Shown here one piece after another: positions 1,753 to 3,745 of a DNA stretch of 11,127 nucleotides (position 1 is the first letter of the stretch; the number at the start of each line of letters is the position of its first letter). Location: NCBI GenBank assembly GCA_020216925.1, contig JAIWOL010000101.1, forward strand, positions 1-11,127, read 5' to 3'. Both the position numbers and the translations under genes were made by a program. This stretch comes from Thiobacillus sp. (lineage in GTDB: Bacteria; Pseudomonadota; Gammaproteobacteria; Burkholderiales; Thiobacillaceae). The notes under the pieces were generated by a model. It ran no database searches. It was not told where the DNA came from and saw nothing but the letters and a program-made list of their open reading frames with translations.

Positions 1753-1783
1753 AACGGGCACCTTCGGGTGCCCGTTTTTTTAT
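1753..1783 (+). terminator. Rho-independent terminator of the second porin
   Basis: A 10-bp stem AACGGGCACC (1753-1762) / GGTGCCCGTT (1767-1776) closed by a stable TTCG tetraloop is followed by a T-run. The stem core is nearly the same as that of the first porin's terminator. Its T-tract overlaps the stop codon of the minus-strand OsmC remnant. Confidence 0.93.
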
Positions 1784-1926
1784 TTTTCAACGATCACACA
1801 ATCATGCGTGATCTCAGCCGTTTTCCCCGGCATGATCGAGGCCGAGCAATATTTGTCGGCTGACAGCTTCACGGCCTGTTCCACGCGCTTGGGATCAAGA
1901 GATCTGCCGGTCACGGTGAAGTGCAC
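1780..1926 (-). pseudogene. Truncated OsmC-family peroxiredoxin (C-terminal remnant)
   Basis: Read on the minus strand, this encodes 48 residues from VHFTVTG to the TAA at 1782-1780. They align without gaps to the C-terminus of the intact OsmC protein at 3329-3745: by my count 38 of 48 residues are identical, and many of the differences are conservative. The second catalytic Cys motif (KYCSAS) is kept. The first two thirds of the protein, including the first catalytic Cys (GGCS in the intact copy), are missing: homology breaks where the tandem repeats begin at about 1927. The open frame continues for 12 more codons into the first repeat, which supplies ATG codons (MLMQDLTPFCVL then VHF), so gene finders may call a 60-residue protein. 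It cannot form the two-Cys active site, so I call it non-functional. The divergence from the intact copy argues against a very recent duplication. Confidence 0.85.
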
Positions 1927-1980
1927 GAGAACGCAAAATGGGGTCAGGTCTTGCATTAACACATTCCCTCGCCTAACCTG
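1927..1980 (+). repeat. Upstream tandem repeat, copy 1 (54 bp)
   Basis: First of three direct copies in front of the transposase gene. The unit contains the 17-base core GGGGTCAGGTCTTGCAT (1940-1956) and ends CTAACCTG. TCAGGT (1944-1949) can pair with ACCTGA (1976-1981) as a 6-bp stem with a 26-base loop. The left edge abuts the truncation point of the OsmC remnant. Confidence 0.95.
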
Positions 1981-1981
1981 A

Positions 1982-2035
1982 GAGAACGCAAAATGGGGTC
2001 AGGTCTTGCATTAACACATTCCCTCGCCTAACCTG
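1982..2035 (+). repeat. Upstream tandem repeat, copy 2 (54 bp)
   Basis: Identical over all 54 bases to copy 1, one base (A) further on. The 17-base core is at 1995-2011. The perfect identity suggests recent or continuously homogenised duplication. Confidence 0.95.
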
Positions 2036-2087
2036 GAACGCAAAATGGGGTCAGGTCTTGCATTAACACATTCCCTCGCCTAACCTG
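2036..2087 (+). repeat. Upstream tandem repeat, copy 3 (52 bp), abutting the transposase start
   Basis: Identical to copies 1 and 2 except that it lacks the first two bases (GA). The core is at 2047-2063, and the TCAGGT/ACCTGA stem (2051-2056 / 2083-2088) is possible. It ends 6 bp before the transposase ATG at 2094, so it must form the leader, and possibly the promoter or an operator, of that gene. I see no good sigma70 pair inside the unit and no strong ribosome binding site. Confidence 0.95.
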
Positions 2088-2093
2088 AGCAGC

Positions 2094-2939
2094 ATGTCAC
2101 GCCCTTTGAGACTTGAACTGGCCGGAGGTCTTTACCACGTCACCGCGCGCGGCGACGGGCGCGAGGACATTTACCTGGACGAGGCGGACCGGCTGGCGTG
2201 GCTGGAGGTGTTCGGCCAGGTCTGCAAGCGGTTCAACTGGGTGTGTCACGCCTGGTGCCAGATGAGCAATCACTACCACGTGCTGATCGAAACGCCGGAG
2301 GCCAATCTTGCGCAGGGGATGCGGCAGCTCAATGGCGTCTACACGCAACGTTTCAATCGCGCGCATGGGCGGGTGGGGCATGTTTTCCAGGGACGGTACA
2401 AGGCGATACTGGTTGAGCGCGACAGCTACCTGCTGGAGCTGGCGCGCTATGTGGTGCTCAATCCGCTGCGCGCCGGAATGGTCAAGCGGCTCGAAACCTG
2501 GCCGTGGAGTAGCTACCTTGCCACGTGCGGCCAGGCGCCGGTTCCCGCATGGTTGCAGCCGGACTGGATTCTGGCGCAGTTCGGTCGGCGGCGTTCCAGT
2601 GCAATCCGCAAGTATGTCGAGTTCGTGCATGCAGGCGCGCGACTGCCGAGTGTGTGGACGCAATTGCAGGGGCAGATCTACCTTGGATCGGAAGATTTCG
2701 TGAAAAGGATGCAGGCGCAGATCGAGAAACATGCATCGCTGGATGAAATTCCGCGCGCCCAGCGTCGACCGTTGACGCAGTCTTTGGCCGATTTCGAACA
2801 GCGTCATGACCGCAACGAGGCGATGGCACGCGCGTATCTGTCCGGACAGCACACCATGACGGCCATTGCCGAGCACTTCGGCGTGCATTATTCGACGGTG
2901 AGCAGGGTGGTGGCGCGCTATGAAGGTGCGGATGAGTGA
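2094..2939 (+). CDS. REP-associated tyrosine transposase (RAYT, HUH/Y1 family)
   Basis: This encodes 281 residues. The N-terminal Y1_Tnp domain (about 1-135) opens with SRPLRLELAGGLYHVTARG, the usual RAYT start; the HUH metal-binding motif is H60-Y61-H62 in MSNHYHVLIETP; and the family signature RYVVLNPLRAGMV carries the likely catalytic tyrosine Y119. HVFQGRYKAILVE (97-109) is also typical. Related enzymes (E. coli TnpA-REP, IS200/IS605 TnpA) cut single-stranded DNA at hairpins through a covalent 5'-phosphotyrosine bond. Residues 136-281 form an extension absent from the 165-residue E. coli protein; its end (about 250-277, TMTAIAEHFGVHYSTVSRVV) reads as a helix-turn-helix. All catalytic residues are present, so the enzyme may be active. 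Inverted repeats flank the gene, and its last 25 bp are duplicated downstream. The ribosome binding site is weak, which fits low expression. Confidence 0.93.
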   Translation: MSRPLRLELAGGLYHVTARGDGREDIYLDEADRLAWLEVFGQVCKRFNWVCHAWCQMSNHYHVLIETPEANLAQGMRQLNGVYTQRFNRAHGRVGHVFQGRYKAILVERDSYLLELARYVVLNPLRAGMVKRLETWPWSSYLATCGQAPVPAWLQPDWILAQFGRRRSSAIRKYVEFVHAGARLPSVWTQLQGQIYLGSEDFVKRMQAQIEKHASLDEIPRAQRRPLTQSLADFEQRHDRNEAMARAYLSGQHTMTAIAEHFGVHYSTVSRVVARYEGADE

Positions 2940-2995
2940 GGGGCCATTGCCAAGCCCGCCGCTGGTGCACGATGCAAGACCTGACCCCTCTGCTC
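2915..2995 (+). repeat. 81-bp direct duplication, copy 1 (includes transposase 3' end)
   Basis: Bases 2915-2995 recur exactly at 3045-3125 (offset 130 bp). The copied segment contains the last 25 bp of the transposase gene, with its stop codon, plus 56 bp of downstream sequence including one inverted 17-base core. The junctions are sharp: the copies differ at the base before and the base after. Confidence 0.95.
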
Positions 2996-3125
2996 CATGC
3001 TGCTCTGCTGGTGCACGATGCAAGACCTGACCCCTCTGCTCCATGCGCTATGAAGGTGCGGATGAGTGAGGGGCCATTGCCAAGCCCGCCGCTGGTGCAC
3101 GATGCAAGACCTGACCCCTCTGCTC
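2961..3125 (-). repeat. Downstream repeat array with inverted 17-base cores
   Basis: A 40-bp unit beginning GCTGGTGCACGATGCAAGAC occurs at 2961-3000 and 3007-3046, exact over all 40 bases, and again as its first 35 bases at 3091-3125. Each carries ATGCAAGACCTGACCCC (2972-2988, 3018-3034, 3102-3118), the exact reverse complement of the core in the upstream repeats. Sequence outside the 17 bases differs between the two flanks. Three upstream and three inverted downstream cores thus bracket the transposase gene, a layout expected for the hairpin ends of REP/REPIN-type elements. Confidence 0.9.
3045..3125 (+). repeat. 81-bp direct duplication, copy 2 (orphan transposase tail)
   Basis: Exact second copy of 2915-2995. 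Bases 3045-3069 encode the same C-terminal RYEGADE-stop as the transposase but are detached from any gene. It marks a local tandem duplication of about 130 bp whose second unit is incomplete, consistent with replication slippage or transposase-linked rearrangement. Confidence 0.95.
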
Positions 3126-3177
3126 TGACCCCTCTGCTCCTCTCTTTGCTCCTCTCCTTGCTCTGCTCCTCTCTGTT
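3111..3177 (+). repeat. C/T-rich low-complexity tract
   Basis: Almost pure pyrimidine-plus-G sequence grown from the repeat edge. CTGACCCCTCTGCTC occurs twice in tandem overlap (3111-3125, 3125-3139), then GCTCCTCTC recurs at 3136, 3148 and 3165. It looks like slippage-prone microsatellite decay of the repeat's last bases. No coding function is apparent; the Arg/Glu/Gln-rich minus-strand reading is a composition artefact. Confidence 0.8.
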
Positions 3178-3328
3178 CAAGATGCCCCCGCTGTTCGTTA
3201 CGTTGTTCCTGAGAAAATCGTTCGCGGGCAGGCGGCCGCGATTGTGTAGGCGTTCGAGACCGCTGCCTTGCTCGAATTGGGCGAAACATCCTGACGCTGC
3301 ACGAGCAGGGGGACGCGCCGAACAGCTT
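3178..3328. other. Gene-free stretch between repeat patch and osmC
   Basis: About 150 bp with no intact gene, tRNA or clear terminator. One plus-strand frame (about 3202-3330) reads VVPEKIVRGQAAAIV, stop, AFETAALLELGETS, stop, which looks protein-like but is broken by two stops; it may be a decayed gene fragment, which I do not recognise. It is also the 3' flank of the minus-strand osmC gene, yet I find no hairpin plus T-run for that direction. Confidence 0.4.
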
Positions 3329-3745
3329 TCAGTCCTCCACCACCTCGAAATCGTGCGTGATCTCGGCGGTCTTGCCGAGCATGATGCTGGCCGAGCAGTA
3401 TTTCTCGGCAGATAATTTCACTGCTTGTTCCACGCGTTTGCGGTCGAGTTCCTTGCCGCTGACGGTGAAGTGGACGTGGATTTTCGTGAAGACCCTGGGG
3501 TCGCTGTCGGCGCGGGTGGCGGTAAGGTCGGCGACGCAGTCCGAGACCTGTTGCCGGCTTTTGCGCAGGATCATCACCACGTCGAACGCGGAACAGCCGC
3601 CCAGACCCATGAGCAGCATTTCCATCGGACGCACGCCGAGGTTCTTGCCGCCGGCCTCGGGTGCGCCGTCCATGACCACGCTGTGGCCGGATTCGCTCTG
3701 GCCGACGAAGCACACATTTTCTAGGAGTTTGACACGGGCTTTCAT
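3329..3745 (-). CDS. OsmC-family peroxiredoxin-like protein
   Basis: This encodes 138 residues, the usual length for the OsmC/Ohr superfamily, cytosolic thiol-dependent enzymes that reduce organic hydroperoxides or act on related sulfur compounds. Both conserved cysteines are present: C51 in MGLGGCSAFDVV and C117 in SAEKYCSASIM. The pattern (PMEMLLMGLGGCSAFDVV, then HVHFTVSG, then a RVEQAVKLS helix) is the OsmC-like YhfA-type layout rather than classic Ohr. The start is supported by GAAGGA 5 bp upstream (3756-3751). The gene overlaps the preceding gene's stop by ATGA (3745-3742), so the two are probably co-translated. A diverged C-terminal copy lies 1.4 kb away on the same strand at 1780-1926. 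The exact substrate is unknown. Confidence 0.92.
   Translation of the reverse strand: MKARVKLLENVCFVGQSESGHSVVMDGAPEAGGKNLGVRPMEMLLMGLGGCSAFDVVMILRKSRQQVSDCVADLTATRADSDPRVFTKIHVHFTVSGKELDRKRVEQAVKLSAEKYCSASIMLGKTAEITHDFEVVED

Follow-up and report, generated by a model that had tools for sequence, protein, structure and literature searches.

The biochemistry of RAYTs in the literature that we examined concerns groups 2 and 3, whose enzymes cleave single-stranded DNA on the 5′ or the 3′ side of their repeat and are able to join ends (PMC8266576); cleavage by enzymes of TnpAY1 subclass 2.1 was not described in that literature. Subclass 2.1 (Bertels group 1) is the largest RAYT-like subclass (Quentin et al. 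2018, PMC6006769) and was reported, in the parts of that study consulted, without recognisable REP-like repeats; according to its authors, it probably corresponds to the TIR-associated tyrosine transposases, or TIRYTs, of Di Nocera et al. 2013 (PMC6006769, PMC3733652). The latter account gave this name to RAYT-like genes located between TIRs with GGGGWSAS, which for some members occur also elsewhere, singly, as dimers or grouped, so that the initial annotation's idea of a distinct new RAYT/repeat family has to be given up (PMC3733652). The locus studied here, which lies in a window (the whole stretch of DNA analysed, 11,127 nucleotides) from a Thiobacillus genome, belongs to the known TIRYT/TIRtron kind: it has a RAYT-like HUH/Y1 gene with inverted GGGGTCAG at both ends, and copies of the TIR are found elsewhere, as one near copy in its own genome and as single or paired copies in relatives.

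According to our analysis, the gene at positions 2094 to 2939 of the forward strand is a TIRYT gene encoding a protein of 281 amino acids with an HUH/Y1 transposase domain and a C-terminal HTH, as indicated by profile, sequence and structure matches. The protein matches the IS200-like HUH domain PF01797 (5e-12), HTH_23/HTH_28 at its C terminus and, at 82.5 bits and thus just above the cut-off of 80, the NCBI model for REP-associated tyrosine transposases, NF047646. The AlphaFold model (pLDDT 84.5, pTM 0.69; weak at residues 214 to 225) finds its best fold match in E. coli TnpAREP (4er8, E value of 1.9e-8), followed by ISDra2 and IS608 TnpA, and a sequence-only search of the PDB returned the same best match, weakly (E value of 0.0025). 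The RAYT type proposed initially for this gene is borne out by PF01797, NF047646 and the TnpAREP fold match. The motifs NHYH (residues 59 to 62), FQ (98 to 99) and YVVLNP (119 to 124) are present, and N59-H60-Y61-H62, Y119, N123 and P124 do not vary among the 22 sequences, window protein included, that were aligned out of 32 first tried. With the NH[YF]H, FQ and Y..LNP motifs and the C-terminal HTH_23/HTH_28-like domain of TnpAY1 subclass 2.1 (PMC6006769), the gene probably fits the TIRYTs of this subclass, whose published pattern has E or H where the window protein has V (YVVLNP). An IS200 transposase (TnpAY1 class 1) was ruled out by the YVVLNP motif and the inverted ends. Relatives were found in 25 plasmid records, all below 60% identity, and in one phage record, with 27% identity over half of the protein. 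One plasmid gene, in Legionella adelaidensis (L260), is 50.7% identical and annotated as a transposase; its end is similar and shows the flank twice, as two copies of CACTCTGGA-GGGTC.

The 17-mer GGGGTCAGGTCTTGCAT had been claimed to occur exactly at 1940, 1995 and 2047 on the forward strand and at 2972, 3018 and 3102 on the reverse strand, and all six copies were found there. The window holds no additional copy at up to 3 mismatches, and the number is far above chance, since dinucleotide shuffles gave a mean of 0.05 matches and six or more matches in 0 of 200; the search of the rest of the genome at up to 2 mismatches returned one near copy, at C2:3689 with 1 mismatch. The observation of the six 17-mers was therefore right, but it missed the larger repeats of which they form part, namely a left repeat of about 54 nt, right repeats of 40 and 81 nt, and a truncated fourth right copy. 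The three left 17-mers belong to one tandem repeat of about 54 nt, present three times between 1927 and 2089, whose unit begins in host DNA (GAACGCAAAAT) and stops about 41 nt inside the element. Left unit 1 (1927 to 1980, forward strand) consists of the host flank GAGAACGCAAAAT and the first 41 nt of the TIR end, left unit 2 spans 1982 to 2035 (forward strand), and of left unit 3 the flank part (GAACGCAAAAT, 2036 to 2046, forward strand) is joined to the inner left TIR. The right 17-mers lie within the 40-nt repeat, with copies on the reverse strand at 2961 to 3000, 3007 to 3046 and 3091 to 3130 (the last at 90%), and within the 81-nt repeat, with forward-strand copies at 2915 to 2995, including the last 25 nt of the ORF with its stop, and at 3045 to 3125. 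The fourth right copy, the outermost stub (3126 to 3132, reverse strand, inside a match at 3108 to 3132), is truncated to GGGGTCA and is followed by the repeated GAGCAGA flank. As the left units and this stub hold host flank together with the start of the TIR, the arrays formed in place after insertion.

The relatives analysed were the best 80 of 580 confirmed among at least 592 pattern matches, i.e. close relatives, from named genomes, which with the window make 81 loci. Counting only flanks of at least 300 nt in these best 80 of 580 and the window, we detected an inward TIR of the form NGGGTCA[AGT][GT][TC]CT within 350 nt on the left side in 71 of 77 cases and on the right side in 55 of 78, both sides having one in 52 of 74 loci; the wrong orientation gave 1 of 155 flanks, windows 1,150 to 1,500 nt away 3 of 139, and the reversed pattern 1 of 155. 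The common core is about 12 nt long, instead of the 17 bases proposed before, and the next 14 nt or so vary with the transposase. Between the two ends of one element these 14 nt agree (mean of 3.88 versus 7.71 mismatches, 40 elements, 0 of 10,000 permutations), and they follow transposase relatedness (Mantel r of 0.44 to 0.47, 0 of 1,000), in an analysis for which an uninterrupted translation and a left TIR were required and which comprised 67 left and 44 right TIRs and 40 loci with both. The window runs counter to the end agreement, since its inner left TIR (2047 to 2072, forward strand; GGGGTCAGGTCT core plus specificity segment) and inner right TIR (2963 to 2988, reverse strand) differ at 9 of 14 positions after the core. 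That the HTH alone reads the specificity segment was considered and rejected: the correlation with TIR distance is similar for the HUH (0.465), middle (0.437) and HTH (0.461) parts, and the partial correlations are 0.295 for HTH given HUH and 0.300 for HUH given HTH. Since the three parts track TIR distance about equally, an HTH-only reading stays a guess. The TIR starts GGGGTCAGG, and the initial annotation was correct in describing the repeats as other than GTAG-type. Directly outside the TIR the host flank is A-rich, A making up 36 to 48 of the 103 bases at each position from −6 to −2, and G is scarce at −1 (6 of 103); these are raw counts over the 103 outermost cores that flank the genes of the 81 loci, and a target preference is possibly behind them.

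Regarding distribution, a 16-mer was present in 31 of 100 genomes, the own one included, its reversed control in none, and a protein relative (E ≤ 0.001) in 63. In the class-wide sample of 370 genomes, tested with the window's own genome set aside, 28 of the 57 genomes that have a transposase relative at E ≤ 1e-80 carry GGGGTCAGGTCTNGC, compared with 30 of the other 312 (Fisher p of 3e-11), and at E ≤ 1e-30 the figures are 35 of 101 versus 23 of 268; the reversed control matched once in each of four genomes. Relatedness among the genomes makes these p-values optimistic; the exact motif is missing from many genomes that have the gene and present in some that do not. The motif nevertheless tracks the gene, as had been expected, and neither its absence from genomes with close RAYTs nor an equal frequency in genomes without them, the two outcomes named beforehand as adverse, was seen. 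Among the 73 distinct TIR copies in 46 fetched loci, 13 are no more than 400 nt from a transposase gene or a fragment of one, 22 belong to gene-less inward pairs and 38 are single. The gene-less inward pairs recur in the genus where flanks do not match, and they tie TIRYTs to REPIN-like miniature elements. Several gene-less palindromic copies can be found within a few kb of each other (G025:C15, G012:C157, G036:C50). Palindrome clusters (L261 to L264) were considered as cassette arrays, an explanation that was not retained, the ORFs of L261, L262 and L264 being inspected by eye only. For two gene-less palindromes, L068 and L095, genus scans of 56 genomes each returned no empty site; the flanks of L068 had no match in other genomes, while those of L095 were partly matched in four (G043, G031, G036, G041), none of the matches spanning the sites, and insertion polymorphism was thus not seen.

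The element common to other genomes extends over about 942 bp of the forward strand, from approximately 2047 to 2988, and comprises the inner left TIR, the transposase gene and the inner right TIR. These limits were set from the starts and stops of DNA matches because the osmC neighbourhood is variable: among the fetched relatives' loci there was no clean empty site for the window element, and no new insertion was seen. Matches start at 2047 in G036, G051 and both G011 copies and at 2048 in G014, whereas the G003 match starts with the leading G of the second TIR copy (1995) and that of G033:C132 at 2045. The right limit of 2988 rests on one genome, G033, whose match (G033:C91) stops at 2989 with unmatched DNA beyond. 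The gene and both arrays together had been proposed as the mobile unit, which does not agree with the host flank contained in the left units, nor with the matches of other genomes, most of which start at the innermost TIR. In G011, two whole copies of the element stand in tandem, 97.9% identical over 934 bp.

The left array adjoins the 3′ remnant of an osmC-like gene (1778 to 1927, reverse strand), which is 73% identical to 3327 to 3476 and, at the amino acid level, 81% identical to the intact OsmC over its 3′ part. A truncated 3′ copy near osmC was found in 8 of 12 fetched relatives' loci (in the window 1778 to 1927 and 3329 to 3742; L228 to L236), and in the neighbourhoods of relatives the truncated copy is separated from the intact gene, or from a second fragment, by other small genes. 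These encode DUF2283, DUF433, RHH/DUF6290, DUF4160 and DUF2442 proteins (a Pfam match was obtained for 5 of 6 proteins tried) and look like toxin-antitoxin or similar cassettes; the osmC 3′ end may be an insertion hot spot. Compared with 2989 to 3330 of the window, G033 (L237, L016) has a close copy beside osmC with the same odd right TIR segment and different DNA directly outside, which reflects independent insertions at a single hot spot or else replacement of the flank.

Many array units in this family consist of the last 5 to 12 nt of the host flank and the first n nt of the TIR, in tandem, a pattern referred to here as stutter; the larger units of the window differ from the typical stutter units of 12 to 19 nt. 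Without assuming any motif, we found exact tandem duplications with units of 11 to 60 nt in 17 of 80 left and 14 of 79 right near flanks (31 of 159), compared with 0 of 81 ORF windows and 1 of 278 far windows (0 of 72, 0 of 74, 0 of 64 and 1 of 68). Of the 40 near-flank duplications, 27 contain GGGGT[CG]A and 13 do not, several of these having a variant. An exact tandem copy of flank and TIR start touches the TIR start in 37 of 157 gene-flank TIRs and in 13 of 69 TIRs of dispersed loci. In motif-anchored scans, at least 4 nt of flank were copied in 158 of 201 neighbouring GGGGTCA pairs, with a null of 1.0%. In an order-level sample the stutter pattern was present in 46 of 399 genomes, the reversed control in 0, and further loci were taken from this sample, found by the stutter pattern itself; a few of their genomes already belonged to the earlier sets, and with repeated sequences dropped 75 of 84 gave new pairs. 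Here, 109 of 134 new pairs copy flank (null of 0.7%), and the flank part measures 4 to 12 nt in nearly all of the 55 simple cases and 17 nt in one, so that the length of 5 to 12 nt predicted beforehand was matched only roughly. As the left units of the window and the short stutter units repeat the adjoining host sequence, they formed in place.

We consider the best explanation, with a probability of about 0.6, to be a TIRtron at approximately 2047 to 2988 whose TIRYT makes stutter units by cutting and rejoining its own end. The TIRYT would recognise its TIR, cleave the GGGGTCA-bearing strand a few nt outside it, and cleave also inside the TIR at preferred points, mainly GGGGTCA^GGTC; the inner 3′ end would sometimes be joined to the outer 5′ end of the sister strand, one unit of flank and stub being added per event. 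The longer units, those on the left with 41 nt of TIR and the 81-nt repeat on the opposite side, may go back to an inner cut placed deeper or to units having recombined with each other afterwards. We infer such cutting and misjoining by the TIRYT from the occurrence of stutter together with the transposase and from the ability of RAYTs of groups 2 and 3 to cut and join ends. The strongest competitor, although a less likely one, is replication slippage or template switching at a fork stalled near the TIR, with no direct role of the transposase. Slippage is in general a source of tandem duplications, which counts in its favour, whereas the near absence of like duplications from the ORF windows and far windows of these loci argues against it.

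The positions of the breaks bear on both explanations. Of the 109 further pairs that copy flank, 58 stop after exactly 7 nt of the TIR, a figure that is conditional, since the GGGGTCA-anchored scans need the motif in the outer copy and are blind to breaks before nt 7. The unanchored scan, with units of at least 10 nt, gave 20 unambiguous inner breaks in gene flanks, at nt 1 (4), 2 (2), 6 (1), 7 (10), 11 (1), 13 (1) and 41 (1), and 6 in dispersed loci, at nt 1 (1), 7 (2), 12 (2) and 26 (1). The main inner break is hence at nt 7 (GGGGTCA^) and the second at nt 1 to 2, nt 3 to 5 being empty in these 26. The favouring of nt 7 in two sets is not what slippage would predict, but the spread of inner breaks over several positions is in line with slippage and, with unambiguous breaks also at nt 1 to 2 (6 of 20), 6, 11, 13 and 41, runs counter to single-site cutting. 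At the outer break the preference is weak, starts with CA numbering 18.2 versus 7.2 expected and, in the further loci, 11.6 versus 4.0. In four loci (L113, L114, L129, L161), successive stutter units often lengthen by the two bases CA, which come from the GGGGTCA stub before them, as though the following outer cut were placed at GGGGT^CA.

The joins require no microhomology. Lengths of 0 to 4 nt were counted 20, 11, 4, 0 and 1 times (n = 36), and in the further loci, where only the 55 simple exact tandems among the 134 pairs enter the break and microhomology counts, 31, 16, 4, 1 and 3 times (n = 55), with 30.9, 15.5, 5.8 and 1.9 expected for 0 to 3 nt if microhomology is not needed; the GGGGTCA^ preference recurred in the further loci as well. 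Joins without homology, no more frequent in microhomology than chance, speak against simple slippage, as does the occurrence of stutter at TIRs without a stable hairpin: the single TIR of the window folds at −1.8, compared with −24 for the inward palindromic pair, which forms one long hairpin. With regard to the transposase, the stutter pattern was present in 29 of 101 genomes with it (E ≤ 1e-30) versus 3 of 268 without, and, when motif-bearing genomes alone are compared, in 14 of 35 versus 3 of 23 (p of 0.04). The three genomes that have the pattern but no transposase at this threshold are a point for slippage and against the enzyme. Going back to cutting and rejoining by the TIRYT, we give somewhat less than even odds to the more general proposal that TIRYTs add units of flank and TIR stub by homology-independent cut-and-join, and that genomes thereby record cleavage in vivo near base resolution. 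If cut-and-join holds, the cuts recorded may lie 5 to 12 nt outside the TIR and, inside it, mainly at nt 7 and also at nt 1 to 2 and about nt 12.

An origin of the repeated copies in faulty assembly of a fragmented draft is highly improbable. The source assembly consists of 196 contigs and is 84.64% complete, and short reads do not easily resolve repeats of 54 nt, so the number of copies given for the window could be wrong; an artefact cannot, however, account for the family-wide pattern, which is present in genomes listed as one contig (G074, G204, G207, G218) and in the isolate drafts of Andreprevotia lacus (L110), Thiococcus pfennigii (L115) and Marinobacter halodurans (L136). The least probable alternative of all, with hardly any weight, is a canonical REPtron or REPIN, in which a group 2 or group 3 RAYT moves GTAG-type palindromes. 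It would share the enzyme superfamily, the flanking inverted repeats and the dispersed gene-less inward pairs with the elements described here, but the repeats begin NGGGTCA and not GTAG or GGAG, the window TIR showed no hairpin with a GTAG or GT[AG]G foot in front of it, a single TIR has no stable hairpin, and the protein carries the HTH tail of subclass 2.1 (PMC6006769).

Taken as a whole, the interpretation in the initial annotation is supported in part: the RAYT, the non-GTAG repeats and the link between motif and gene stand, whereas the new class, the 17-nt core and the arrays as element ends do not. Truncated units of flank and TIR, or a link of such units to cleavage points, were not found in the literature searched, a search that missed at least one relevant paper, and a search with the letters of the core gave no transposon paper by title among the matches listed.

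REPs and REPINs reiterated together with flanking DNA are already published. In the tandem REPIN clusters of P. fluorescens SBW25, some of which are beside RAYT genes, repeats are reiterated with flanking DNA as they are here, but it is whole REPINs that are repeated, whereas our typical unit consists of 5 to 12 nt of flank and a truncated end (PMC3116915). IS200/IS605 elements such as IS608 and ISDra2 have the HUH/Y1 single-strand transposase fold in common with the window protein and differ by their lack of terminal inverted repeats and by their Y---Q motif (PMC2817692, PMC6006769). E. coli TnpAREP and the REPtrons of groups 2 and 3 likewise share the HUH/Y1 fold, and their repeat is cut 5′ or 3′ and rejoined; they have, however, a GTAG foot with a hairpin and cleavage at C|T (or CA), in contrast to the linear GGGGTCA core and the putative cut at GGGGTCA^ considered here (PMC8266576). 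The study of subclass 2.1 saw, in the parts consulted, no REP-like sequences near the genes and regarded the link to TIRYTs as needing confirmation (PMC6006769), whereas most of the relatives analysed here have a TIR. Closest to our locus is the TIRYT account, and the longer core, the clade-specific segment and the truncated units of flank and TIR, which are not described in the portion of that account consulted (PMC3733652), are where the present elements depart from it. The conserved TIR core, the clade-specific segment and the stutter scars together provide subclass 2.1 with a defined substrate and likely element ends, and the scars may mark the cleavage points of a subclass whose biochemistry is absent from the literature examined.
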